Part shown: one piece after another, positions 7,842-48,108 of the stretch
How the letters are laid out: each line of letters begins with the position of its first letter
Numbering within the stretch: the stretch's first letter is position 1
Assembly: GCF_021353295.2 (NCBI RefSeq)
Contig: NZ_CP120635.1
Span: 1,282,001 to 1,346,000 of the forward strand
Length of the DNA stretch: 64,000 nt
Direction: 5' to 3'
From: Pseudodesulfovibrio thermohalotolerans
GTDB lineage: Bacteria; Desulfobacterota; Desulfovibrionia; Desulfovibrionales; Desulfovibrionaceae
Notes under the pieces: generated by a model
The model's input: the letters and a program-made list of their open reading frames with translations, nothing else
The model's database searches: none
What the model was told of the DNA's origin: nothing
Program-made: the position numbers and the translations under genes

Positions 7842-10800
7842 ATGTCCGCAACACCGACCTCCCTGGATCCGAGAATAATCGCTCGGGGCAGGGAGTTTTT
7901 TTCGTCCATTTCGGGAGAATCTCCTTCGGTTTTCAATAAGGGCTGGTGGACCGGAAAGGTCATGGACTGGGCCATGAAAAACGAAGATTTCAAGGTTCAG
8001 ATGTTCAGATTTGTTGACGTTCTTCCGTACCTGAACACGTCCGATTCCCTGTCGCGCCATATCGAAGAATATTTCGCGGGCGAAGATTCCAACATTCCCG
8101 ACGTGCTCAAATGGGGCGCCACCAAGACCAAGTTCGGCGGCGGCCTTGTGGCCAAGGTCCTGAACAAGACCATCCGCTCCAATATCGAGTCCATGGCCCG
8201 CCAGTTCATCATCGGCCAGGAGGCCAGGGAGGCGGTCAAGGGCATCAAGAAACTGCGCAAGGACGGTTTCGCCTTCGTCCTCGACCTGCTTGGCGAGGCC
8301 ACGGTCTCCGAAGTGGAGTCCGAGGCCTACCGCGACGGTTATCTGGAAGTCCTGGACGCCATACATAAGGAATTGGACAAGTGGAAACCGCTCGACGCTT
8401 CCTCCGGCGACCAGGATTGGGGTCATGCGCCCAAGGTCAACGTGGCGGTCAAGCCGTCGGCCTTCTATTCCCAGTCCAAGCCCGTGGACGTGGAGGGCAC
8501 CGTGGACGGCATGGTCCGCAGTATCGAGCCGGTGTACAGGAAGGTCATGGAGATGGGCGGTTTCATGTGCATCGACATGGAGCAGCTCAAGTACAAGGAG
8601 GCCACGGTCGAGCTCTACAAGCGGCTGCGGCTCAAGTACCCGAACTATCCGCATCTGGGCATCGTCTTCCAGGCCTATCTCAAGACCGTGGACGAGGATG
8701 TGCGCCTGTTCATCGACTGGGCCCGTGAGGCCGGTCTTCCGGTGTCCATCCGGCTGGTCAAGGGGGCCTATTGGGACTACGAAACCGTGCTGGCCAAGCA
8801 GAACGACTGGCCCGTGCCCGTCTGGACCCACAAGCCCGAGTCCGACATGGCCTACGAGCGCGTGTCCCGCTACATCCTTGAAAATCATGACATCTGCCAT
8901 TTCGCCTGCGCCTCGCACAACATCCGCACCATCTCCTCGGTCATGGAGAACGCGACGGAGCTGAAGGTGCCGGAGGACCGCTACGAGTTCCAGGTCCTCT
9001 ACGGCATGGCGGAACCCGTGCGCAAGGGGCTCAAGAACGTGGCCCGGCGCGTGCGTCTGTACTGCCCCTACGGCGATCTCCTTCCCGGCATGGCCTACCT
9101 GGTCCGGCGGCTGCTCGAAAACACGGCCAACGAGTCCTTCCTCAAGCAGACCTTCGCCGACGAAGCGGATATGGAGCGTCTGCTTGAAAATCCCTCGGAG
9201 ACCTTGCGCCGTCAGCTTGAGGGCAAGTGCAGGACCGGACAGGAAGAGCGCGAAGGGCTGCCCCGGTTCAGGAACTTCCCGCCCGCCGACTTCACCGTTC
9301 CGGCGGAGCGTGAAGCGTATCCCGCGTCCATCGCCCGAATTCGTTCCGCCATGGGCGGACGGGTTCCGCTTTTCATCAACGGCCGGGACGTGACCACCGA
9401 CGACGTGCTGGATTCCTACAATCCGGCAAACCCCGGGGAGATTGTCGGTTCCGTTTGCCAGGCGGGCGTGGCCGAGGTCGACGCCGCCGTGGAGGCGGCC
9501 AGGGTGGCCTATCCGGTCTGGCGCGACGTTCCGCCCGAGGAGCGGGCGCAGGTTCTGCTCAAGGCCGCTGCGCATCTCAAGGCCAACGTCCACGAAATGG
9601 CCGCGCTCCAGGTCCTCGAAGTGGGCAAGCAGTGGGATCAGGCTCAGGCGGACGTGGGCGAGGCCATCGACTTCCTCGAATACTACGCCCGCGAGATGAT
9701 CCGCCTGGGCAAGCCGCGCCGCATGGGCCGGGCTCCCGGCGAGATGAGCCACCTCTTTTATCAGGGCAAGGGCGTTGCCGCCGTCATCGCGCCCTGGAAC
9801 TTCCCCATGGCCATCTCCGTGGGCATGGTCTCTGCCGCCATCGTCTGCGGCAACCCCGTGGTCTACAAGCCGGCCGGTTCCTCGTCCTGCGTGGGACGTG
9901 CCCTGGTGGACATGTGGAAGGCCGCAGGTCTGCCCGACGGGGTCTTCAACTACTGCCCCGGCCGGGGTTCGGTCATGGGCGATCATCTGGTGGACCACCC
10001 CGACGTGGCGGTGATCGCCTTCACCGGCTCCATGGAGGTCGGCCTGCGCATTCAGGAACGCGCCGCCGTGGTTCAACCCGGCCAGCAGCACTGCAAGCGG
10101 GTTATCGCCGAAATGGGCGGCAAGAACGCTATCATCGTCGATGACGACGCCGATCTCGACGAGGCCGTGCTCGGCGTGCTTTATTCCGCATTCGGCTTCC
10201 AGGGACAGAAGTGCTCGGCCTGCTCCCGGGCCGTGGTTCTCGACGCCATCTACGACCGCTTCGTGAGCCGTCTCGTCGAGGCAGCCAAGTCCGTCAAGCT
10301 CGGCCCGGCCGAGAATCCGGCCAACTACATGGGGCCGGTGGTGGACGAGGCCGCCCGCAAGAACGTCATGCGTTACGTCGGGATCGCCGAGGAAGAGGGC
10401 AGCGTGCTCGTCAAGCGCGAGGTTTCCGACGATCTCAAGGCCTCCGGCGGCTGCTACGTGCCCCTGACCATCGTTGAAAATATCACAAAGGAACACCGCA
10501 TCGCGCAGGAAGAGGTTTTCGGCCCGGTGCTCTCGGTCATGCGTGCCGCAGACATGAATGCGGCCCTGGAGATCGCCAACTCCACCCGGTTTGCTCTGAC
10601 CGGGGCCATCTACTCCCGCAGTCCGCGCAACCTGGAACGGGCGTCCAGGGAGTTCCGCGTGGGCAACCTGTATCTGAACAAGCCTTCGGTGGGCGCGCTC
10701 GTGGAACGCCACGCCTTTGGCGGTTTCAAGATGTCCGGCGTGGGCTCCAAGTCCGGCGGCCCGGACTACCTGCTCCAGTTCATGGACCCGCGCCTTGTCT

Positions 10801-10862
10801 GCGAGAACACCATGCGCCGGGGCTTTGCCCCCATCGAGGAAGGCGACGACTGGCTGAGCTAG
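7842..10862 (+). CDS. putA: Bifunctional proline dehydrogenase / L-glutamate-gamma-semialdehyde dehydrogenase
   Basis: The 1006-residue protein contains a proline dehydrogenase FAD barrel (about 100-430; RLVKGAYWDYE and YGMAEPVRKG motifs) and an aldehyde dehydrogenase domain (about 500-980). The latter has the catalytic Cys791 in GQKCSAC, the general-base Glu757 in IAEMGGKN, and FTGSMEVG for NAD binding. It oxidises proline to glutamate, feeding electrons to the quinone pool. It lacks the N-terminal ribbon-helix-helix DNA-binding domain of E. coli PutA, so regulation probably falls to the adjacent Lrp protein. AAGGAG lies 7 nt before the ATG, and a terminator follows. Confidence 0.95.
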   Translation: MSATPTSLDPRIIARGREFFSSISGESPSVFNKGWWTGKVMDWAMKNEDFKVQMFRFVDVLPYLNTSDSLSRHIEEYFAGEDSNIPDVLKWGATKTKFGGGLVAKVLNKTIRSNIESMARQFIIGQEAREAVKGIKKLRKDGFAFVLDLLGEATVSEVESEAYRDGYLEVLDAIHKELDKWKPLDASSGDQDWGHAPKVNVAVKPSAFYSQSKPVDVEGTVDGMVRSIEPVYRKVMEMGGFMCIDMEQLKYKEATVELYKRLRLKYPNYPHLGIVFQAYLKTVDEDVRLFIDWAREAGLPVSIRLVKGAYWDYETVLAKQNDWPVPVWTHKPESDMAYERVSRYILENHDICHFACASHNIRTISSVMENATELKVPEDRYEFQVLYGMAEPVRKGLKNVARRVRLYCPYGDLLPGMAYLVRRLLENTANESFLKQTFADEADMERLLENPSETLRRQLEGKCRTGQEEREGLPRFRNFPPADFTVPAEREAYPASIARIRSAMGGRVPLFINGRDVTTDDVLDSYNPANPGEIVGSVCQAGVAEVDAAVEAARVAYPVWRDVPPEERAQVLLKAAAHLKANVHEMAALQVLEVGKQWDQAQADVGEAIDFLEYYAREMIRLGKPRRMGRAPGEMSHLFYQGKGVAAVIAPWNFPMAISVGMVSAAIVCGNPVVYKPAGSSSCVGRALVDMWKAAGLPDGVFNYCPGRGSVMGDHLVDHPDVAVIAFTGSMEVGLRIQERAAVVQPGQQHCKRVIAEMGGKNAIIVDDDADLDEAVLGVLYSAFGFQGQKCSACSRAVVLDAIYDRFVSRLVEAAKSVKLGPAENPANYMGPVVDEAARKNVMRYVGIAEEEGSVLVKREVSDDLKASGGCYVPLTIVENITKEHRIAQEEVFGPVLSVMRAADMNAALEIANSTRFALTGAIYSRSPRNLERASREFRVGNLYLNKPSVGALVERHAFGGFKMSGVGSKSGGPDYLLQFMDPRLVCENTMRRGFAPIEEGDDWLS

Positions 10863-10884: not shown

Positions 10885-10919
10885 AAGCCCTGCCCGATCT
10901 ACCGGGCGGGGCTTTTTTG
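10885..10919 (+). terminator. Rho-independent terminator after putA
   Basis: AAGCCCTGCCCG pairs with CGGGCGGGGCTT (one G-U pair) around a 6-nt loop and is followed by six Ts. It ends the lrp-putA unit. Confidence 0.88.
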
Positions 10920-11124: not shown

Positions 11125-11146
11125 AAACTGAGTGTTTACTCAGTTT
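11125..11146. promoter_or_regulatory. TetR-type operator 1 upstream of the sulP operon
   Basis: Perfect inverted repeat with 9-bp arms AAACTGAGT / ACTCAGTTT and a 4-bp centre. It lies about 12 bp upstream of the predicted -35 box and shares its core with operator 2. Binding by the TetR protein encoded at 11239 is inferred. Confidence 0.65.
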
Positions 11147-11157
11147 AGCCCGTTTCT

Positions 11158-11187
11158 TTGACTTTGTGCCGTTTTATCCAGTATTAG
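11158..11187 (+). promoter_or_regulatory. Predicted sigma-70 promoter of the tetR-sulP operon
   Basis: TTGACT (11158-11163), an 18-bp spacer and TATTAG (11182-11187). It is bracketed by two copies of the same inverted repeat, as expected for a repressor-controlled promoter. Confidence 0.55.
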
Positions 11188-11193
11188 AGAAAA

Positions 11194-11213
11194 AACTGAG
11201 TGGACACTCGGTT
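11194..11213. promoter_or_regulatory. TetR-type operator 2 upstream of the sulP operon
   Basis: AACTGAGT / ACTCGGTT around GGAC, one mismatch to a perfect 8-bp inverted repeat, with the same ACTGAGT core as operator 1. It lies at and just beyond the predicted transcription start, and before the tetR ATG at 11239. Confidence 0.6.
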
Positions 11214-11238
11214 AGATTGGGAAAAAAGGATCAAAGGC

Positions 11239-11820
11239 ATGAAGAAGAAGGAAGCCATCCTCAAGGTCGCCACGTTCATGTTCGCTCACAAGGGGTTTGC
11301 GGACACGTCGGGGCAGGAACTTGCCCGCCTCACCGGGGTGGCCGAGGGGACGATCTTCTATCACTTCAAGACGAAGGAGGGCTTGCTGCTCGCGATCCTT
11401 GAGAAGACCAGGGACGAGATAGTGGACCAATTTGAACGGTTCTTGGAGAACAGGCCGTTCAAGTCGGGTCTTGAGATGACGGAGGAGGTCGTCTCTTTCT
11501 ATCTTTATCTGGCCGGTCTGATGGAAGATAAGTTCCTGCTCCTTCACCGTCACTTTCTCTACCAGTACTCCGAGTCGAATCCGGAGTTCAGGGCGAACCT
11601 GGAGGATATCTACAATTGCCTCGTGGACATCTTCGAGAAGGCTATCGTGACGGGGCGGGAGGACGGCTCCATCAGCTTGGAAATCAATCCCAGGAAATCG
11701 GCGCTCATTCTGTTTACGATGGCAGATGGTCTGGTTCGATTTAAAAACTACAACCTGTACGATGCGGGCGCGCTGTTCAACGAACTGATGCGCACATGCC
11801 GCAGGATGTTGCAGGCATAA
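11239..11820 (+). CDS. TetR/AcrR family regulator of the sulP operon
   Basis: This 193-residue protein has a TetR helix-turn-helix in residues 1-55 (KVATFMFAHKGFADTSG, then LARLTGVAEGTIFYHFKTKEGL) followed by a helical effector domain. I chose ATG 11239, with AAAGGA 8 nt upstream. A longer frame starting with GTG at 11200 would run through operator 2. It is the first gene of the unit, 17 bp before sulP, and probably represses its own operon through the two inverted repeats. The ligand is unknown; an anion or stress signal is only a guess from the operon content. Confidence 0.88.
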   Translation: MKKKEAILKVATFMFAHKGFADTSGQELARLTGVAEGTIFYHFKTKEGLLLAILEKTRDEIVDQFERFLENRPFKSGLEMTEEVVSFYLYLAGLMEDKFLLLHRHFLYQYSESNPEFRANLEDIYNCLVDIFEKAIVTGREDGSISLEINPRKSALILFTMADGLVRFKNYNLYDAGALFNELMRTCRRMLQA

Positions 11821-11837
11821 TCCAAGGAAGAGGCTGA

Positions 11838-13964
11838 ATGCTTTCACGGATAATCCCTTTCATCGGCTGGTTCAAAGGGTACAACATGGCGGCGCTCCGT
11901 GCCGACGCCATCGCGGGGCTGACCGTTGCCCTCGTGCTCATCCCCCAATCCATGGCCTATGCCCAGTTGGCGGGTATGCCTGCCTACTACGGCTTGTATG
12001 CGTCCTTTCTTCCCCCCCTGGTGGCGGCCCTGTTCGGCTCCAGCCGTCAATTGGCCACAGGGCCGGTGGCCGTGGTTTCGCTCATGACGGCTGCCTCCCT
12101 TGAGCCTTTGGCCACGGCAGGCAGCGAGGGATATATCGCCTACGCCATTTTGCTGGCCCTGATGGTCGGCATCTTCCAGCTCCTGCTCGGCGTGCTCAAG
12201 CTCGGCCTGGTGGTCAACTTCCTGTCCCACCCCGTGGTCAACGGTTTTACCAACGCCGCGGCCATCATCATCGCTTCTTCCCAGCTTTCCAAGATGTTCG
12301 GCGTTTATGTGGACAAGGCCGACCATCATTACGAGACCATCATCCGCGTGGTCGAGAGCGCGGTGCATTACACCCACTGGCCTACGCTGGCCATGGGAGC
12401 GCTCGCGTTCGGCATCATGATCGTGCTCAAACGCGTCAATCCGAAGATTCCCAACGTCCTCGTGGCGGTCGTGGTGACCACGGCCCTTTCCTGGGGACTG
12501 GGCTTCAATCACGACGCCAAGGCTCCGCTGGAGTCCATCCGCGTCCCCGCAGTCCACGAAGCCATCAACGGTTTCAACACCGCAGTGGCCGGGATCGATG
12601 ATCTGGCCACGCAGCGCACCGCTCTGGGCAAGGCCATGAAGGAAGCCGAGAAGGGTGGGGACCCGGTCGGGATTCTCGACATCGAGCACGATCAGAGCGT
12701 GGTCAACGTCAAGATGGCCCGTCTCAAGCTCCAGGCTCACGAACTGCGCTCCGAGCTTCGGGAGACCCTGCTTACCGGGGTTGAACAGCCCGACGGCAGC
12801 CTGCTTTTCTTTGCCAAGGACGCGATCCCGGCGGGCATGACCTCCGACGGACGCACCTGGCGGGTCAAGGTAGGCAACGGCAGGCTCGACACCGCTGCCC
12901 TGAAGATGATGGGCGGCGGGGCGGTCGTCGGTTCGGTGCCTTCCGGCATCCCGGCCATCAGCGCGCCTTCCCTCGATTTCGAGGTCATGTTGCACCTGGT
13001 CCCGTTCGCGGCGATCATTTCCCTGCTCGGCTTCATGGAGGCTATCTCCATCGCCAAGGCCATGGCCGCCAAGACCGGACAGCGTCTCGACCCCAACCAG
13101 GAGCTCATCGGCCAGGGATTGGCCAACATCCTCGGCGCCTGCGGCAAGAGCTACCCGGCTTCGGGCTCCTTCTCGCGTTCGGCGGTCAACCTGCAAGCGG
13201 GCGCGGTCACCGGCATGTCCAGCGTGTTCACCTCGCTGATGGTCGTCATCGCTCTGCTTTTCTTCACCCCGTTACTCTACCATCTGCCCCAGGCCGTGCT
13301 GGCCGCAGTCATCATGATGGCCGTCATCGGGCTTATCAACGCTTCGGGTTTCATTCACGCCTGGAAGGCGCAGTGGTATGACGGGGCCATCTCCATCCTG
13401 TCCTTCCTCTGCACCCTGGCTTTCGCCCCGCATCTGGACAAGGGCATCATGGTCGGCGTGGTCCTGTCCCTGCTTGTCTTCCTGTACAAGTCCATGCGCC
13501 CCCGCGTCGCCACCCTGTCCCGTTCCGAGGACAAGTCCCTTCGCGACGCCACGGCCTTCGGCCTCAGGGAGTGTCGCCACATAGCCCTGGTCCGCTTCGA
13601 CGGTCCGCTCTTCTTCGCCAACGCGAGCTTCCTTGAGGATCAGATCACCGAGCGGATGATGGGCAACGACAAACTTCGGCACATCATTATCGTGGCCAAC
13701 GGCATCAACGACATGGACGCCTCTGGCGAGGAAGCCCTGTCGCTGATCGTGGACCGCGTCCGGTCCAGCGGTCTGGATATCTCCCTGTGCGGCGTGAACG
13801 AGTCGGTCATGGCCGTGCTGGAACGCACCCACCTGCTGGAGAAGATCGGCAAGGATCACGTCTACGCCACCATGGAGAACGCCATCTGCGCCACGCACGA
13901 GAGTGCGCACCAGGATGGTCAGGAAGATAACTGTCCTCTCACCACTGTTTGCCGCCTGGCCTAA
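11838..13964 (+). CDS. SulP/SLC26 family anion transporter with STAS domain and large insertion
   Basis: The 708-residue membrane protein starts with the SulP signature region (ADAIAGLTVALVLIPQSMAYA, LPPLVAALFGSSRQLATGP) and ends with a cytosolic STAS domain (about 570-680, with NDMDASGEEAL). SulP proteins carry sulfate, bicarbonate or other anions, and the substrate is not readable here. About 130 residues (roughly 235-365), charged and predicted helical, are inserted just before the conserved GSVPSGIP loop that precedes a core membrane helix. From the usual SLC26 topology I infer the insertion is periplasmic. GGAAGAGG precedes the ATG. Signalling genes follow directly. Confidence 0.9.
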   Translation: MLSRIIPFIGWFKGYNMAALRADAIAGLTVALVLIPQSMAYAQLAGMPAYYGLYASFLPPLVAALFGSSRQLATGPVAVVSLMTAASLEPLATAGSEGYIAYAILLALMVGIFQLLLGVLKLGLVVNFLSHPVVNGFTNAAAIIIASSQLSKMFGVYVDKADHHYETIIRVVESAVHYTHWPTLAMGALAFGIMIVLKRVNPKIPNVLVAVVVTTALSWGLGFNHDAKAPLESIRVPAVHEAINGFNTAVAGIDDLATQRTALGKAMKEAEKGGDPVGILDIEHDQSVVNVKMARLKLQAHELRSELRETLLTGVEQPDGSLLFFAKDAIPAGMTSDGRTWRVKVGNGRLDTAALKMMGGGAVVGSVPSGIPAISAPSLDFEVMLHLVPFAAIISLLGFMEAISIAKAMAAKTGQRLDPNQELIGQGLANILGACGKSYPASGSFSRSAVNLQAGAVTGMSSVFTSLMVVIALLFFTPLLYHLPQAVLAAVIMMAVIGLINASGFIHAWKAQWYDGAISILSFLCTLAFAPHLDKGIMVGVVLSLLVFLYKSMRPRVATLSRSEDKSLRDATAFGLRECRHIALVRFDGPLFFANASFLEDQITERMMGNDKLRHIIIVANGINDMDASGEEALSLIVDRVRSSGLDISLCGVNESVMAVLERTHLLEKIGKDHVYATMENAICATHESAHQDGQEDNCPLTTVCRLA

Positions 13965-13984
13965 GGCGAGAAAAGGGAGTCAAT

Positions 13985-15202
13985 ATGTCTGTCATTACCG
14001 TTTTCAACGGATTGTTCTGCGAGGCCGGAGTGGTGGTCAAGCGCGTCGTTGACGCCACGGACTGCCGCCTGGTCACCGATCAGGAGATCGTGGCCGACGC
14101 CTCCAAGCTGTCCGGCCTGGCCGAGGACCGCATCGCACGGGCCTTTCAGGCCAAGGCCTCGGTCTTCAACGCCTTCAGCCATGAAAAGGAGCAGGCCATC
14201 GCCTGGATGCGCCTGGCCGTGGCAAAGAGGCTGATCGACGGCGAGAATATCATCATTCCCGGGTTCGCTTCCCAGTTGCCCGATCCCGAGATCGGCCACA
14301 TCCTCAAGGTTTGCCTCATTTCCGACATGAAGGCCCGCCTTGGCGTGGCCGAGCGTGAGGAGGGCTTCGCGGAGAAGCACGCCATGAAGCTCATCCGCAA
14401 GGACGACGAGGACCGCGCCGCCTGGGTCAAGGCACTGCGCGGCACCGACGACCCGTGGGCCGGCACCCTGTACGACCTGGTCCTGCCCGTGGCCGCCACA
14501 GGCGTTGAACGTTCCGCCGACCTCATCGTCGAGCAGCTCTCCAACGCCGTGGTCAAGGTCACGGACCGTTCCCGCGCAGCCGTGAAGGACTTCCTCTTGG
14601 CCGCTCGGGTCGAGACCGTGCTCGCAAGGGAGGGCCACAACGTCCTGGTGAGCGCAAGCAAGGGAACCATCACCCTGACCATCAACAAGCATGTGCTCCT
14701 GCTGGAGAAGCTGGAACGCGAGCTCAAGGGCATCGTCTCCGACGTGGAAGGCGTCCTGGCCGTGGAGTGTCAGGTGGGCAAGGGATTCCATCAGACCGAC
14801 ATCTATCGCAAGATGGACTTCGAAGTGCCTTCCAAGGTCCTGCTGGTGGACGACGAACGCGAGTTCGTCCAAACCCTGTCCGAGCGTTTGATGATGCGTG
14901 ACATGGGGTCGGCCGTGGTCTACGATGGCGAGTCCGCCTTGAATCTGGTCCAAGAAGACGAACCCGAAGTCATGATCCTCGACCTGAAGATGCCCGGCAT
15001 AGACGGCATCGAGGTCCTGCGTCGCGTAAAGCGTGAACATCCCGACATCGAGGTCATCATCCTGACCGGCCACGGTTCGGAGGACGATCGCAAGGTGTGC
15101 ATGGAATTGGGCGCGTTCGCCTATCTGCACAAGCCCGTGAACATCGACGTCCTGAGCGAGACGCTCAAGGCGGCCAATGAAAAGATCCGGGCAGGAAAGT
15201 AA
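13985..15202 (+). CDS. Cytidylate-kinase-like / BON-like / receiver fusion protein
   Basis: The 405-residue soluble protein appears to have three parts. Residues 1-185 resemble the cytidylate kinase-like family (PF13189 type), but the N-terminal P-loop is not intact: NGLFCEAGVVVKR stands where a glycine-rich GxGK[ST] loop would be. Residues 195-270 resemble a BON domain (KDFLLAARVETVL, then ASKGTITLTI and SDVEGVLAVECQV). Residues 283-405 are a receiver domain with VDDE, phosphoacceptor Asp333 (MILDLKMPG), ILTGHGS and LHKPV. I chose ATG 13985 behind GGGAG. It lies between sulP and the histidine kinase gene. The domain reading is by eye; the kinase-like part is probably a sensor or scaffold rather than an active enzyme. 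Confidence 0.78.
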   Translation: MSVITVFNGLFCEAGVVVKRVVDATDCRLVTDQEIVADASKLSGLAEDRIARAFQAKASVFNAFSHEKEQAIAWMRLAVAKRLIDGENIIIPGFASQLPDPEIGHILKVCLISDMKARLGVAEREEGFAEKHAMKLIRKDDEDRAAWVKALRGTDDPWAGTLYDLVLPVAATGVERSADLIVEQLSNAVVKVTDRSRAAVKDFLLAARVETVLAREGHNVLVSASKGTITLTINKHVLLLEKLERELKGIVSDVEGVLAVECQVGKGFHQTDIYRKMDFEVPSKVLLVDDEREFVQTLSERLMMRDMGSAVVYDGESALNLVQEDEPEVMILDLKMPGIDGIEVLRRVKREHPDIEVIILTGHGSEDDRKVCMELGAFAYLHKPVNIDVLSETLKAANEKIRAGK

Positions 15203-15223
15203 CCGCTAAAGCCGGGTGGCGTC

Positions 15224-16972
15224 ATGGCATTGTTCGAGAAGATACGACCGCAGTTCTGGGATACGGATGGCAACGGCGGAGCAGGCAAGAGCCTCTTCGA
15301 TTACCGGCGCATCTGGCGCTTCGCCATCATTTTGCTGGCATTGGTGGCGCTCATCCCTCTGATGGTGATGGCCTTCATCGACTACAACGTCACCCGGCAT
15401 TCCCTGGAGTCCGAGAACCTGCTTCGCGCGGCCAGGACCACCTCCAACACCCGGCGGTCCGTGGCCTACTTCCTGGAGGAGCGGTCCAAGGCTCTGGAGT
15501 TTCTGATTAAGAACCAGGGCATCGCGGCCTTGCGCGACGAGGATAACCTGGCCAAGGTCATGTCCTCCCTCCAACAGAGTTTCGGCGGGTTCGTGGATAT
15601 CGGCGTGATCGACGCCAAGGGCCAGCAGATCGCCTACATTGGTCCGTATGACCTGCTCGGCCGCGATTACAGCGGCCAGGAAGGGTTTGCCACAACCATG
15701 ACCCACGGCTCCTACATCAGCCGCGTTTTCCTCGGATTCCGCGACGAGCCGCATTTGGTCATTTCGCGCAAGGTCAGGGATGAACGGAACGGGCAGGACT
15801 ACATGCTCCGGGCCACCCTGGACACGAACCAGTTCAATTCCATCCTGACTTCCCTGGATCTGCCGGGCGGCGGCGATGCCTTCGCGGTCGACCGCGACGG
15901 CATCATCCAGACCCCGTCCAAGCAGCACGGCGCATTGTTGACAAAGGTGGACCTGACCATTCCCGGCTATTCCGATAAGACCAGCGTGCAGCAGGTCCGG
16001 GACGGGAACGGCGAGGAGTACACGGTCGGTTACGCCTACGTTCACGACACCCCGTTCATCGTTCTCGTGGTCAAGCGCACCCGTGAGCTGATGAAGCCGT
16101 TGCAGACCATACGCATGGAGCTGCTCTGGATACTCATAACGAGTATCGTCGTGATCCTGCTGGTCATCGTGGGCGTAGCCACTTATATGGTCAACAAGAT
16201 CTACATCGCGGATCAGACCCGGGCGCGCACCCTGCATCGCATGGAGCACACCAACCGCATGGCTTCCATCGGACGGCTGGCGGCGGGTGTGGCCCACGAG
16301 ATCAACAATCCGCTGGCCATCATCAACGAGAAGGCCGGATTGATCCGCGACCTGTTCGTCTACAGGCAGGAGTACGCCAACGACGATCGGCTGCTCGGGA
16401 ATATCGATTCCATCCTCAGTTCCGTGGCCCGGTGCGGCAAGATCACCAAGCGGCTGCTCAGCTTCGCCCGGCATATCGACGTGGAGATGGATGAGATCGA
16501 GTTCAACGATTTGGCCAATGAGGTCATCGATTTCCTGCGCAAGGAAGCCGAGTACCGTTCCATCTCCATCGAGATGGACGTGCCGGCAAACCTGCCTCCG
16601 TTCATCTCCGACCGGGGCAAGTTGCAGCAGATTTTTCTCAATCTGGTAAATAACGCCTTTCAGGCCATGAGCGATGGCGGTCATCTGTATATTTCCGCCA
16701 GGGAAACGGCCTGCGACCATCTGATTTTTGTGGTGGAGGACGACGGGTGCGGCATTCCTCAGTCCGACATCAAGCGCATTTTCGATCCGTTCTTCTCCAC
16801 GAAGAAGAAGTCCGGGGGCACGGGGCTCGGCCTGTCCATCACCTACGGTCTGGTCCAGGAACTGGGGGGGACCATGACTGTCGAGAGCGAGGTGGGCAAG
16901 GGCACGACTTTCACCATAGTCATGCCTCTCAAGGGGGCCAAGCCCGAAGACAACAGGAAAGACAAGGCATAG
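15224..16972 (+). CDS. Membrane sensor histidine kinase with Cache-like extracytoplasmic domain
   Basis: The 582-residue protein has a membrane helix near 35-55, a roughly 240-residue extracytoplasmic region of Cache type (VDIGVIDAKGQQIAYIGPYDL and YVHDTPFIVLVVKR), a second helix near 305-327, and a full kinase core. In the core are H-box GVAHEINNPLAII with His358, N-box IFLNLVNNAF, G1 EDDGCGIP, F-box FDPFFSTKK and G2 GGTGLGLS. It should autophosphorylate on a small-molecule or redox signal and pass phosphate to one or more of the receivers in the cluster. It is followed 1 bp later by a receiver gene. Confidence 0.92.
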   Translation: MALFEKIRPQFWDTDGNGGAGKSLFDYRRIWRFAIILLALVALIPLMVMAFIDYNVTRHSLESENLLRAARTTSNTRRSVAYFLEERSKALEFLIKNQGIAALRDEDNLAKVMSSLQQSFGGFVDIGVIDAKGQQIAYIGPYDLLGRDYSGQEGFATTMTHGSYISRVFLGFRDEPHLVISRKVRDERNGQDYMLRATLDTNQFNSILTSLDLPGGGDAFAVDRDGIIQTPSKQHGALLTKVDLTIPGYSDKTSVQQVRDGNGEEYTVGYAYVHDTPFIVLVVKRTRELMKPLQTIRMELLWILITSIVVILLVIVGVATYMVNKIYIADQTRARTLHRMEHTNRMASIGRLAAGVAHEINNPLAIINEKAGLIRDLFVYRQEYANDDRLLGNIDSILSSVARCGKITKRLLSFARHIDVEMDEIEFNDLANEVIDFLRKEAEYRSISIEMDVPANLPPFISDRGKLQQIFLNLVNNAFQAMSDGGHLYISARETACDHLIFVVEDDGCGIPQSDIKRIFDPFFSTKKKSGGTGLGLSITYGLVQELGGTMTVESEVGKGTTFTIVMPLKGAKPEDNRKDKA

Positions 16973-16973
16973 T

Positions 16974-17324
16974 ATGAAAGTACTTTTGGTAGACGACGAA
17001 GTGGAACTGGTTTCCGCCATGGCCGAGCGGCTCGGATTCCGCGGCCTGGAAGCGGACTGGACGGACAACGGTGAAACGGCCTTGGAGATGGCCGACGCCA
17101 ATGATTATGACGTGGCTGTTCTGGATATGAAAATGCCCAGGCTGAGCGGCCTGGATCTTATGGAGCGAATGGCCGCCAAGCATCCGGACATGAAGTTCAT
17201 TTTTTTGTCCGGTCACGGCTCCGAATCGGATTTCAAGGCGGGCTGCGCGGCGGGCTGTAATTATCTTATCAAGCCCATCCAGCTCGAAGACCTCGTCGCC
17301 CTGATCCAAAAGGCGACGGAGTAA
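16974..17324 (+). CDS. Single-domain response regulator (receiver only)
   Basis: The 116-residue protein is just a CheY-like receiver: acidic pair VDDE, phosphoacceptor Asp51 (VLDMKMP), Ser in FLSGHGSE in place of the common Thr, and Lys in LIKPI. It has no output domain, so it may relay phosphate or bind a partner. It starts 1 bp after the kinase stop, which makes it the most likely direct target of that kinase. Confidence 0.9.
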   Translation: MKVLLVDDEVELVSAMAERLGFRGLEADWTDNGETALEMADANDYDVAVLDMKMPRLSGLDLMERMAAKHPDMKFIFLSGHGSESDFKAGCAAGCNYLIKPIQLEDLVALIQKATE

Positions 17325-17340
17325 GGACAAAGGAGTGACC

Positions 17341-17991
17341 ATGAGCCAGACCCTCTGCGAGACCCGCGACGGGTTGCGTTTCTTCGGGCGTGTCAGCGCA
17401 TCCGTATCCCATGAGATCAAGAATGTGTTCGCCGTCATCAACGAGGCGGCCGGTTTGATCGAGGATTTCACGCTCATGGCCGAGCGCGGTATGCCCCTCC
17501 GGCCGGAGCGGCTGAAGAGCGCGGCCAACTCCATCCAGGGACAGATACAGCGAGGCGACGCCATCGTCAAAAACATGAATGCGTTCGCGCACTCCACCGA
17601 CGAGGATGTTCGTGAGCTTGATCTGGTCGAGGCCCTGAACCTGGCTGTGGCCCTGACCTCCCGTTTTGCCGATATGCGGCAGATCAAGCTGTCCATGGGC
17701 GACTGTGAGCCCGTGTCCATGGCCGCGTGTCCCTTTGATCTGACGCGGCTGCTGCACTCCTCCTTCGCGGCGGCCTTTGACTCCATGAAACCGGGCGACT
17801 CGCTGATTGCCGCTGTCGCGCCCGTTGAAGGCGGCGCATCGTTCTCCCTTTCCGTACCCGGAAAGGATGCGCCGCTGAGGAATGACGAACCGTTCGCCGA
17901 TCTGGCCCGGGCCATGGGCGTTCGTGTCGAGGTGAACGAAAGGACCGGGGCCAGTGAATTGCGGCTTGCCGCTACGGGCGCTCCCGCGTAA
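17341..17991 (+). CDS. Histidine kinase-like protein with H-box but no recognisable ATPase motifs
   Basis: This 216-residue soluble protein carries a clear dimerisation/phosphoacceptor segment (VSASVSHEIKNVFAVINE, His24) followed by a predicted two-helix bundle. The C-terminal half aligns in position with an HATPase domain but shows no N-box (LLHSSFAAAFDSM in its place), no DxGxG box and no glycine-rich G2 box. It probably cannot bind ATP as a normal kinase does. A role as phosphotransfer protein, phosphatase or receiver-binding decoy is inference. ATG 17341 is favoured because AAGGAG is 7 nt upstream. It lies between two receiver genes. Confidence 0.8.
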   Translation: MSQTLCETRDGLRFFGRVSASVSHEIKNVFAVINEAAGLIEDFTLMAERGMPLRPERLKSAANSIQGQIQRGDAIVKNMNAFAHSTDEDVRELDLVEALNLAVALTSRFADMRQIKLSMGDCEPVSMAACPFDLTRLLHSSFAAAFDSMKPGDSLIAAVAPVEGGASFSLSVPGKDAPLRNDEPFADLARAMGVRVEVNERTGASELRLAATGAPA

Positions 17992-18022
17992 GACAACTTC
18001 ATACCTGATCGGAGAAGTAAAA

Positions 18023-18451
18023 ATGGCAGAAAAAGTACTGCTTATCGATGATGAAGTGGAATTCCTCGAAGCTCTGTCCGAGCGGATGGAGATCCGGGGC
18101 ATGGATGTGACCACGGCCGAAAATGCCGACAACGCCGTCAACGCGATCAAATCGGGCGACTACGACGCCATAGTGCTGGACCTTCAGATGCCGGACATGA
18201 ACGGCATCGAGATGCTCAAGGTCATCAAGAAGGGCAACCCGGACATGCAGGTCATCCTGCTCACCGGCCAGGCCACTCTTGAAGCGGGCATTCAGGCCAT
18301 GAAGCTCGGAGCCATGGACTTCATGGAGAAGCCCGCGGACATCGACGCCCTGACCGACAAGATCAAGAAGGCTCAGGCCAAGAAGATGGTCATCGTGGAA
18401 AAGAAGACCGAGAAGAAGGTCAACGAGATTCTCAAGTCCAAGGGGTGGTAG
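18023..18451 (+). CDS. Response regulator with short lysine-rich tail
   Basis: The 142-residue protein has a complete receiver (IDDE, Asp53 in VLDLQMP, LLTGQAT, MEKPAD) and then about 25 residues rich in Lys and Glu (KKAQAKKMVIVEKKTEKKV) instead of a DNA-binding domain. ATG 18023 with GGAGAAGTAAAA upstream begins exactly at the receiver; the frame is open further 5' within the previous gene. It is the last gene of the sulP cluster, 31 bp after the kinase-like gene, and a strong terminator follows. Confidence 0.88.
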   Translation: MAEKVLLIDDEVEFLEALSERMEIRGMDVTTAENADNAVNAIKSGDYDAIVLDLQMPDMNGIEMLKVIKKGNPDMQVILLTGQATLEAGIQAMKLGAMDFMEKPADIDALTDKIKKAQAKKMVIVEKKTEKKVNEILKSKGW

Positions 18452-46905: not shown

Positions 46906-48108
46906 CTAGAGGCGCGCCTCGGTTTCCCGCCGGACCTCCCGATCGAGGGCCAGCACCGTCTCCGGCGTGGATACGTCCACAGGGGCATGACGGTCAAGTC
47001 CGGCTTCGATTATGGCCGGGATGTCGGTGAACCCGATGCGTTCCTTCAGGAAGGCGTCAACCGCGATCTCGTTGGCCGCGTTGAGTACGATGGGGTGGCT
47101 CGGCCCGGCGTCGAAGGCCTCGCGGGCCAGCCGCAGGCAGGGGAAGGCGTCAAGGTCGGGCTCTTCGAAGGTCAGTGTGCCCACCGAAGCGAGTTGGAGA
47201 CGCGGCACGTCCACCGTGACCCGTTCGGGGTAGCAGAGACAGTGGGCGATGGGCACCTGCATGTCGGGGTTGCCCATGTGGGCGAGCTGGGAGCCGTCCA
47301 CATACTCCACCAGGGAGTGGACGATGGATTGGGGATGGACCACCACGTCCACCATTTCGGGCGGCAGGCCATAAAGATGGCAGGCCTCGATGAGTTCGAG
47401 TCCCTTGTTCATCAGGGTGGCCGAGTCGATGGAAATTTTCGCACCCATGTTCCAGTTGGGATGGGCCAGCGCCTGTTCGCGAGTAACGGTTTCGAGGAAC
47501 GCCCGGTCTTTGCCCCTGAACGGGCCGCCTGAAGCCGTCAGGATGAGCCGTTTCAGCTCCTCGTCCCTGCCGTGTCCGGCCAGCCCCTGGAACAGGGCGT
47601 TGTGTTCGGAGTCCACGGGCAGGATCACGGCTCCGGTTCTGCGGCAGGCCGCCCGGATGAGGTGGCCGCCCAGCACCAGGGATTCCTTGTTGGCCAGAGC
47701 GATCATCTTTCCCGCCTCGGCCGCGGCCAGGGTGGGCTCGAAACCGGCGGCACCCACAATGGAGGAGAGGACCAGGTCCACCTCGTCCATGGCGGCCAGC
47801 CGGACATACGCGCCGGGTCCGACCAGCAGCTCGGGGGCATAGCCCTCGGGCAGGTTTTGGAGAAATTCCTGCCCGGCCTCTTTGGTCAGCACGGCAGCGT
47901 ATTCAGGTCGGAATCTGGCGCACAATTCGGCCAGCTTGCGTCCATTGCGTCCGCCCGCCAGCGCCTTGACCGTAAACCGTTCGGGGTGCTTGGCCGCGAC
48001 TTTGAGCGCCGAGTCGCCGATGGAGCCGGTGGCCCCGAGAATGGCGAGCCTGCGCGGGAACGACGGAGTGGCGACCGATGCGGGCCAGGAAGATATGTAG
48101 GTTTTCAT
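46906..48108 (-). CDS. dxr: 1-deoxy-D-xylulose 5-phosphate reductoisomerase
   Basis: The 400-residue NADPH-dependent enzyme makes methylerythritol 4-phosphate, the second step of the MEP isoprenoid pathway. Motifs: LAILGATGSIGDSAL (NADPH), ANKESLVLGG, PVDSEHNALFQ with the metal-binding Asp and Glu, ASGGPFRG, and HPNWNMGAKISIDSATLMNKG. It is cotranscribed after cdsA and before rseP, the same order as in many bacteria (uppS-cdsA-dxr-rseP). Confidence 0.95.
   Translation of the reverse strand: MKTYISSWPASVATPSFPRRLAILGATGSIGDSALKVAAKHPERFTVKALAGGRNGRKLAELCARFRPEYAAVLTKEAGQEFLQNLPEGYAPELLVGPGAYVRLAAMDEVDLVLSSIVGAAGFEPTLAAAEAGKMIALANKESLVLGGHLIRAACRRTGAVILPVDSEHNALFQGLAGHGRDEELKRLILTASGGPFRGKDRAFLETVTREQALAHPNWNMGAKISIDSATLMNKGLELIEACHLYGLPPEMVDVVVHPQSIVHSLVEYVDGSQLAHMGNPDMQVPIAHCLCYPERVTVDVPRLQLASVGTLTFEEPDLDAFPCLRLAREAFDAGPSHPIVLNAANEIAVDAFLKERIGFTDIPAIIEAGLDRHAPVDVSTPETVLALDREVRRETEARL

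Follow-up and report, generated by a model that had tools for sequence, protein, structure and literature searches.

Sulfate respiration begins with the uptake of sulfate. In Pseudodesulfovibrio thermohalotolerans, whose 3.89 Mb genome is a single contig (NZ_CP120635.1) and encodes dsrA, a unit of seven same-strand genes sets a SulP-type anion transporter between a TetR-family repressor and the parts of a two-component system. The unit occupies positions 11126-18451 of the window, the stretch of 64,000 nucleotides analysed here (contig positions 1,282,001 to 1,346,000), and lies between two terminator-like hairpins. Its genes run in the order tetR; SulP; CKR, a cytidylate-kinase-like/BON-like/receiver fusion; a Cache histidine kinase; R2, a single receiver; HisP, an H-box protein with a degenerate ATPase; and R3, another single receiver. 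The intergenic gaps along the unit are 17, 20, 21, 1, 16, and 31 bp. The features, in window coordinates, are as follows.

10885-10914, terminator-like hairpin upstream of the unit
11126..11145, predicted upstream palindromic operator AACTGAGTGTTTACTCAGTT, from genome search and upstream scan
11158..11187, + strand, possible promoter TTGACT-18-TATTAG between the palindromes, read by eye
11194..11213, predicted downstream palindromic operator AACTGAGTGGACACTCGGTT, from genome search and upstream scan
11239..11820, + strand, TetR-family repressor (Pfam), ATG start preferred; the open reading frame (ORF) opens at GTG 11200
11838..13964, + strand, SulP/SLC26-type anion transporter with a STAS domain and an extra segment of about 135 aa (residues about 223-359) between the transport halves
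13985..15202, + strand, CKR: cytidylate-kinase-like domain (4-167), BON-like domain (about 194-264), receiver (285-394)
15224..16972, + strand, membrane histidine kinase: dCache_1 sensor, HisKA and HATPase_c, with the key catalytic-box residues conserved
16974..17324, + strand, R2: receiver only
17341..17991, + strand, HisP: dimerization and histidine phosphotransfer (DHp) hairpin with His24 and Asn28, plus a degenerate domain like the catalytic and ATP-binding (CA) domain of kinases
18023..18451, + strand, R3: receiver with a C-terminal tail of about 27 residues
18472..18505, + strand, terminator-like hairpin of 15 pairs, then a T run

A first-pass annotation of the window had described seven co-directional genes separated by 1-31 bp, and the ORFs, their coordinates, and the Pfam matches bear out both this arrangement and its list of parts.

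The unit begins with a repressor gene and its putative operators. The tetR product carries a TetR_N domain (49 bits in Pfam; cut-off 24), and a palindromic operator is predicted at its own promoter, the combination that marks TetR repressors. The two palindromes start 68 bp apart. They are the only matches with 0-1 mismatches in the whole genome; all others found by a search that allowed up to 3 have 3 mismatches. Of the 57 loci with enough sequence, 54 have a similar palindrome in the 200 bp before tetR, as against 71 of 2850 shuffled upstream regions, and 30 have a pair spaced 66-70 bp apart. The same scan of the other upstream regions gave 2/58 for SulP, 0/67 for CKR, 17/60 for the kinase, 0/60 for R2, 1/60 for HisP, and 0/58 for R3. 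(The kinase-upstream matches were rejected as operators: the CKR coding sequence contains all 17, and most are variants of CCTGAGCGAGACGCTCAAG.) On these counts, the very probable role of TetR is to repress its own operon, with hardly any targets beyond it. In NCBIfam and PDB it is closest to fatty-acid regulators, the NCBIfam match lying far below the cut-off. ATG 11239 is the more likely start of tetR; GTG 11200 falls within the second palindrome. The first-pass annotation had placed a promoter between two matching palindromes. The palindromes hold up well, being unique in the genome and recurrent in relatives. The promoter was read by eye only, and a consensus promoter scan of the unit did not list TTGACT-18-TATTAG.

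The transporter has both domains that define the SulP/SLC26 family, Sulfate_transp (346.7 bits) and STAS (57.9 bits), and scores 443.1 bits against TIGR00815 (cut-off 380.45). SulP retains the residues described as needed for sulfate and H+ in SULTR4;1 (PMC8298490): Gln37 and Tyr41 are present in 59 of 60 aligned rows (one gap), and Glu401, Ser446, and Arg447 in all 60. SulP is likely a sulfate transporter, though the kept site residues are not decisive. The extra segment between the transport halves measures 132-138 aa in 60/60 rows and is absent from the three solved relatives aligned with it; its Pfam matches are all sub-threshold, and we infer that it is periplasmic. The host genome holds two further SulP-family ORFs. 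A conserved CPLTT-like C-terminal tail of SulP was considered as a docking site and dropped, since the tail also occurs in SulPs that have no CKR neighbour (L125, L127, L128, L134, L136; loci are given here by L numbers). The SulP homologues of L122-L124, whose genomes gave no CKR match, stand in a different gene context and have no CPLTT-like tail; in two of these three loci a second SulP-like ORF is nearby. L202 has only a short SulP-like fragment between TetR and CKR, either a broken transporter gene or an assembly fault.

In CKR, Pfam identifies Cytidylate_kin2 (PF13189; 54.5 bits, cut-off 28) and Response_reg (98.7 bits), and the aligned relatives are 400-418 aa long. The middle domain, with sub-threshold Pfam matches only, is provisionally called BON-like, from the alpha-beta-beta-alpha-beta order of strands and helices in a structure predicted with a mean local-distance score (pLDDT) of 90.8. 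A PDB sequence search with the kinase-like part gave no relevant match, and structure searches with CKR returned only the receiver among the matches listed. Active cytidylate kinases have a glycine-rich motif at the nucleotide-binding loop. No such loop was seen by eye at the CKR N-terminus in an alignment of which every second row was viewed; the only invariant column there is Met1. The lack of a conserved glycine-rich loop in these rows makes it likely that the kinase-like part is a pseudokinase. In one close relative a second cytidylate-kinase-like paralogue lies away from SulP (L107, 6402-7898), with an incomplete Response_reg match that begins at profile position 17.

The remaining four genes encode the other putative parts of the phosphorelay. 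The kinase has a dCache_1 sensor domain (79.8 bits; cut-off 45), whose region found no useful match in a PDB search; its phosphorylatable His, N-box Asn, and G-box residues are kept in 59/59 aligned rows, with variation at a few neighbouring positions. R2 and R3 match Response_reg at 84.5 and 100.5 bits. The acidic pair and phospho-acceptor Asp are present in every aligned row of all three receivers (CKR, 69; R2, 59; R3, 55). Pfam matched no DNA-binding domain in CKR, R2, or R3 of the window, as the first-pass annotation had said. In relatives, R2 is 114-128 aa long (59 rows) and R3 130-143 aa (55 rows); being of receiver length, both are too short for an added DNA-binding domain of the usual size. 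The three receivers resemble each other most in helix alpha1, where they share 0.50-0.55 identity, as against 0.33-0.36 with other receivers; over the rest of the domain the excess is smaller (0.31-0.39 versus 0.27-0.32). The contrast is indicative only, since the control set is small (23 sequences) and mixed: not all of it consists of clean receivers, and one member is a fused SulP receiver. Such likeness in helix alpha1 is expected if the three share partners.

HisP matches HisKA alone in Pfam, at 22.7 bits, under the 26.9 cut-off, and no other family; no HATPase match was listed at E up to 10, with filters that drop most matches above about 0.1. Its AlphaFold2 model (pLDDT 92.6) contains a long helical hairpin and an alpha/beta domain, and its matches among solved structures are histidine-kinase cores; ChpT is absent from the structure matches listed, which excludes nothing. 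HisP has the build of ChpT-, Spo0B-, and PhyT-like proteins, a DHp His together with a degenerate CA domain, as in a kinase whose ATP site has been lost. Both His24 and Asn28 are kept in 59/59 aligned rows within the motif H-[E/D]-x-x-N, the type of motif found in phosphatase-competent kinases. In its DHp helix, HisP has an identity of 0.47 with the neighbouring kinase (58 loci), 0.46 with those kinases when loci are crossed, and 0.32 with a set of nine other kinases. (The cluster kinases themselves are 0.55 identical to the same nine, some of which are plainly close paralogues.) Since the cluster kinases are closer to those nine than HisP is to its own kinase or to those of other loci, HisP likely derives from a kinase of this kind and not from the neighbouring gene itself. 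Its build suggests a former kinase that now serves as a phosphotransferase or phosphatase.

The gene set is conserved. With the first 280 residues of CKR as query, 89 of 297 genomes of the host's class match at E<=0.001, some of them through kinase-type relatives without a receiver; 32 of 34 genomes of the host's genus match, own genome included, G268 weakly. Neighbourhoods were compared at 60 CKR-match places and 17 named loci. Left out of the counting were L046 and L047 (receiver-only matches), L107 (the paralogue), L093 (CKR match too short), and the same-contig duplicates L055, L056, L066, L070, and L077, leaving 68 distinct loci. All seven genes stand in order in 51 of these, and SulP directly precedes CKR in 59. 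The first-pass annotation had proposed a search for the same gene set in other genomes; the set is indeed kept together. The 17 incomplete loci comprise five at contig ends (L031, L033, L038, L042, L084); L044, without TetR; L085-L087, without an R3 match; L094 and L095, in which CKR has none of SulP, kinase, R2, and HisP beside it; and L101-L106, which have other transporters. Complete units outside the host's class include L039 and L040 (Desulfobacterales), L041 (Syntrophobacteraceae), and L043.

A profile of the CKR N-terminal part finds matches at E<=0.001 in 246 of the 291 genomes of the Desulfatibacillum class, receiver-less relatives included. Gene make-up is more variable in 40 loci from this class, hand-picked and not a random draw, than in the first set. 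In L199, L203, L205, L206, and L211, for instance, SulP and CKR are placed after kinase, R2, and HisP.

Evidence on where the relay may act comes from fused transporters. In Desulfatibacillum alkenivorans (L044, 7844-10384), SulP and a C-terminal receiver (Response_reg at 722-831, E 6.6e-29) share a single ORF of 846 residues, and CKR, kinase, R2, HisP, and R3 follow. Over 291 genomes, with 8 candidates scored per genome, the STAS-to-receiver stretch matches end to end in at least four: the query's own, one at 91% identity, and two at 64%. Besides L044, SulP-receiver fusions were noted in L196, L197, and L198. Among the 120 matches listed of 2917 homologues of the L044 stretch, 18 join transporter, STAS, and receiver, one of them named as from a Myxococcales metagenome-assembled genome. 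For 11 of these 18 fusions, the receiver shares 50% identity or more with that of CKR. Seventeen retain the acidic pair, acceptor Asp, Thr/Ser, and Lys; in the other, P0340, the sequence breaks off after the Asp. In a midpoint-rooted tree of 68 receivers with only 115 columns, the four fused receivers included make up a single clade (100/97) nested among the CKR-type receivers (100/89). The receiver-fused SulPs also have the extra segment, of 133-167 aa (69 aa in the truncated P0356). That relatives fuse a CKR-type receiver to SulP suggests that the relay signal may act on the transporter.

The relay is not confined to SulP. Relay proteins adjoin DASS-type, TauE/SafE, and PPDK_N genes across L101-L106 and L212-L229. 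CKR, mostly with kinase and R2, stands beside DASS-type transporters identified by Pfam in L101, L103-L106, L217, and L229; similar membrane ORFs at other loci are candidates for the same type. CitMHS is the best match in L101 and L103-L106, with Na_sulph_symp also over the cut-off; Na_sulph_symp is best in L217 and L229, where a CBS-domain gene follows the DASS gene. In L217 (12135-14049), a sub-threshold NifX-type protein and a receiver-less PAS-sigma54-HTH activator precede the DASS-type relay genes. TauE lies beside relay proteins in L101 and L106, and PPDK_N proteins occur within the CKR units of L101, L102, and L106. L106 reads, on a single strand: TetR, R3, TauE, an unassigned ORF, a PPDK_N protein, CKR, kinase, R2, HisP, and a DASS-type transporter. 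Reuse of the relay beside other anion transporters supports a link between relay and transporter.

This suggests a model with two layers of control. TetR would bind both palindromes around its own promoter and repress the whole unit until a small ligand releases it. The Cache kinase would sense a periplasmic ligand, possibly sulfate, and sulfate might then be both substrate and signal. Phosphate would pass from the kinase to R2, to HisP as phosphotransferase, and then to CKR and R3. The relay, having no DNA-binding end, would deliver its output by protein contact: a phosphorylated CKR-type receiver would alter its contact with SulP, and so tune SulP activity to supply. That the unit is a sulfate-uptake operon so controlled, with the relay acting at the transporter and TetR as the local repressor, we consider evenly balanced between right and wrong. 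A broader proposal is more tentative, and falls somewhat short of an even chance: that a dedicated His-Asp phosphorelay with a pseudokinase-BON-receiver hub, whose receiver type has been joined to SulP in several lineages, gates secondary anion transporters directly, and is reused for the SulP, DASS-type, and TauE transporters of sulfate reducers. If true, relay action on the transporter would give a globally important flux a fast control at the post-translational level. With the receiver-fused SulPs, such action could be tested directly in one polypeptide. Earlier, a protein target had been suggested for the relay, perhaps the STAS domain; the fusions favour the transporter and do not single out STAS. 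Overall, the original observation is confirmed and its interpretation partly supported.

Several findings weigh against the model. A fusion indicates proximity, not gating, and a transporter that signals to the relay would also fit. Of the 18 fusions, seven have a receiver that cannot clearly be called CKR-type: for P0351, P0354, P0359, and P0360 the best match is R3 (in P0359 by about 2 bits), and for P0353, P0356, and P0358 it is CKR, at 39-41% identity. Genomes that lack a CKR match can still encode a SulP with this extra segment, and according to PMC8298490 selectivity for sulfate follows no clear residue pattern. In the 40 selected loci, relay members are at times without a match: R2 in L200, L204, L207, L210, L229, and L235; HisP in L209, L212, L216, L226 (contig end), and L234; and the kinase in L216 and L234. 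A linear relay is thus not obligatory. L234 instead has an NtrC-type regulator with a DNA-binding domain after SulP-CKR, in place of the relay, and in L103 and L217 PAS/sigma-54 activators carrying HTH_8 are found close to the DASS-type units. The first-pass annotation had named an intact DNA-binding output as a finding that would make the unit less special: none was matched in the window's receivers, and L234 is a counter-example among related loci.

Of the alternatives, the one that fares best concerns HisP. It bears on one step only: HisP might serve as a phosphatase or sink for the receivers, not as a phosphotransferase. Its conserved motif fits such a role, and PhyT was itself first taken for a phosphatase, according to PMC5898713; set against this, the degenerate kinases PhyT, ChpT, and Spo0B are described as phosphotransferases (PMC5898713, PMC3433190), and an operon with several single receivers points to a relay. 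We regard a phosphatase or sink as quite possible, if somewhat doubtful.

A PhoRB-like scheme of transcriptional control is unlikely. Here the kinase would sense external sulfate, response regulators would change transcription of the transporter gene, and TetR would add a second layer. PMC11887813 proposes such a scheme for sulP and DASS clusters, and the NtrC-type regulator of L234 and the PAS/sigma-54 activators near DASS-type units fit it. It conflicts with the absence of any matched DNA-binding domain in the window's receivers and with the receiver length of R2 and R3, and transcription alone explains the SulP-receiver fusions poorly.

It is equally improbable that the transporter is the sensor, with SulP and its extra segment reporting flux or sulfate to the relay, and CKR signalling to a metabolic or nucleotide-linked target elsewhere. 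Such an arrangement would accord with CKR as the most constant neighbour of SulP, with the conservation of the insertion in every row, and with the PPDK_N proteins in some CKR units. The receiver fused to SulP is a phospho-acceptor, however, and more likely an input to the transporter, and the kinase has a Cache sensor of its own.

Least probable is that SulP moves another anion, such as bicarbonate, and that the unit is not about sulfate: SulP matches bicarbonate and C4-dicarboxylate carrier models only below their cut-offs and no residue pattern marks selectivity (PMC8298490), whereas relay proteins also stand beside DASS-type transporters (Na_sulph_symp or CitMHS best) and TauE, the host carries dsrA, and a SulP protein is called abundant in a sulfate reducer in PMC11887813.

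A large ORF with a proline dehydrogenase/aldehyde dehydrogenase look, named PutA-like by eye (window 7842-10862), ends in the terminator before the unit and keeps that position in the closest relatives. ARAGORN made one odd tRNA-like call with a four-base anticodon (window 47323-47414), and an Rfam scan of the window gave nothing above gathering scores.

How does the unit compare with known systems? The first-pass annotation knew of none with this composition, a statement that no longer holds. According to PMC11887813 (Sci Adv 2025), sulP of Desulfobacteraceae and Dv. salexigens is clustered with two-component genes, TetR, and a 16-bp palindrome, so that a unit of this make-up is already known. 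The present unit shares its SulP, two-component, and TetR genes, the palindromic operator upstream of tetR, and the Cache kinase. The same paper describes a second cluster, of DASS with two-component and CBS proteins, which L217 and L229 resemble. It notes that the Cache kinases of the two clusters are similar, suggests sulfate as their common effector, and words the response regulators as WalR-type. It differs from the reading preferred here, relay action at the transporter, in proposing transcriptional control; its cluster section has no HisP-like protein or SulP-receiver fusion, and the word "cytidylate" is absent from its main text. The present analysis adds the receivers without a matched DNA-binding domain, HisP as a probable degenerate kinase, the relay beside DASS-type and TauE transporters, and the SulP-receiver fusions. 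Among the open-access papers listed by literature searches, no description of CKR, HisP, or SulP-receiver fusions was found; the parts of PMC9239204 and PMC3333781 consulted hold nothing on this unit.

Individual parts have parallels too. Like HisP, the ChpT, Spo0B, and PhyT proteins described in PMC3433190 and PMC5898713 have a DHp domain with a conserved His, and they serve in relays that pass phosphate between receivers; ChpT and PhyT add a degenerate ATPase-like domain (PhyT by its description there). HisP departs from ChpT in sequence, matching only HisKA in Pfam and no ChpT-type transferase family, and so it is not filed as ChpT. SulP shares its transport core, STAS domain, and sulfate/H+ site residues with AtSULTR4;1 and SLC26 proteins as presented in PMC8298490, and differs from the three solved relatives aligned with it in the extra segment of about 135 aa between the halves and in the receiver-fused form found among its relatives. 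Finally, a single-domain response regulator that acts on an enzyme has been published (PMC12802240). Like R2 and R3, it is a receiver without a DNA-binding output; its target, though, is a glycan enzyme rather than an ion transporter.

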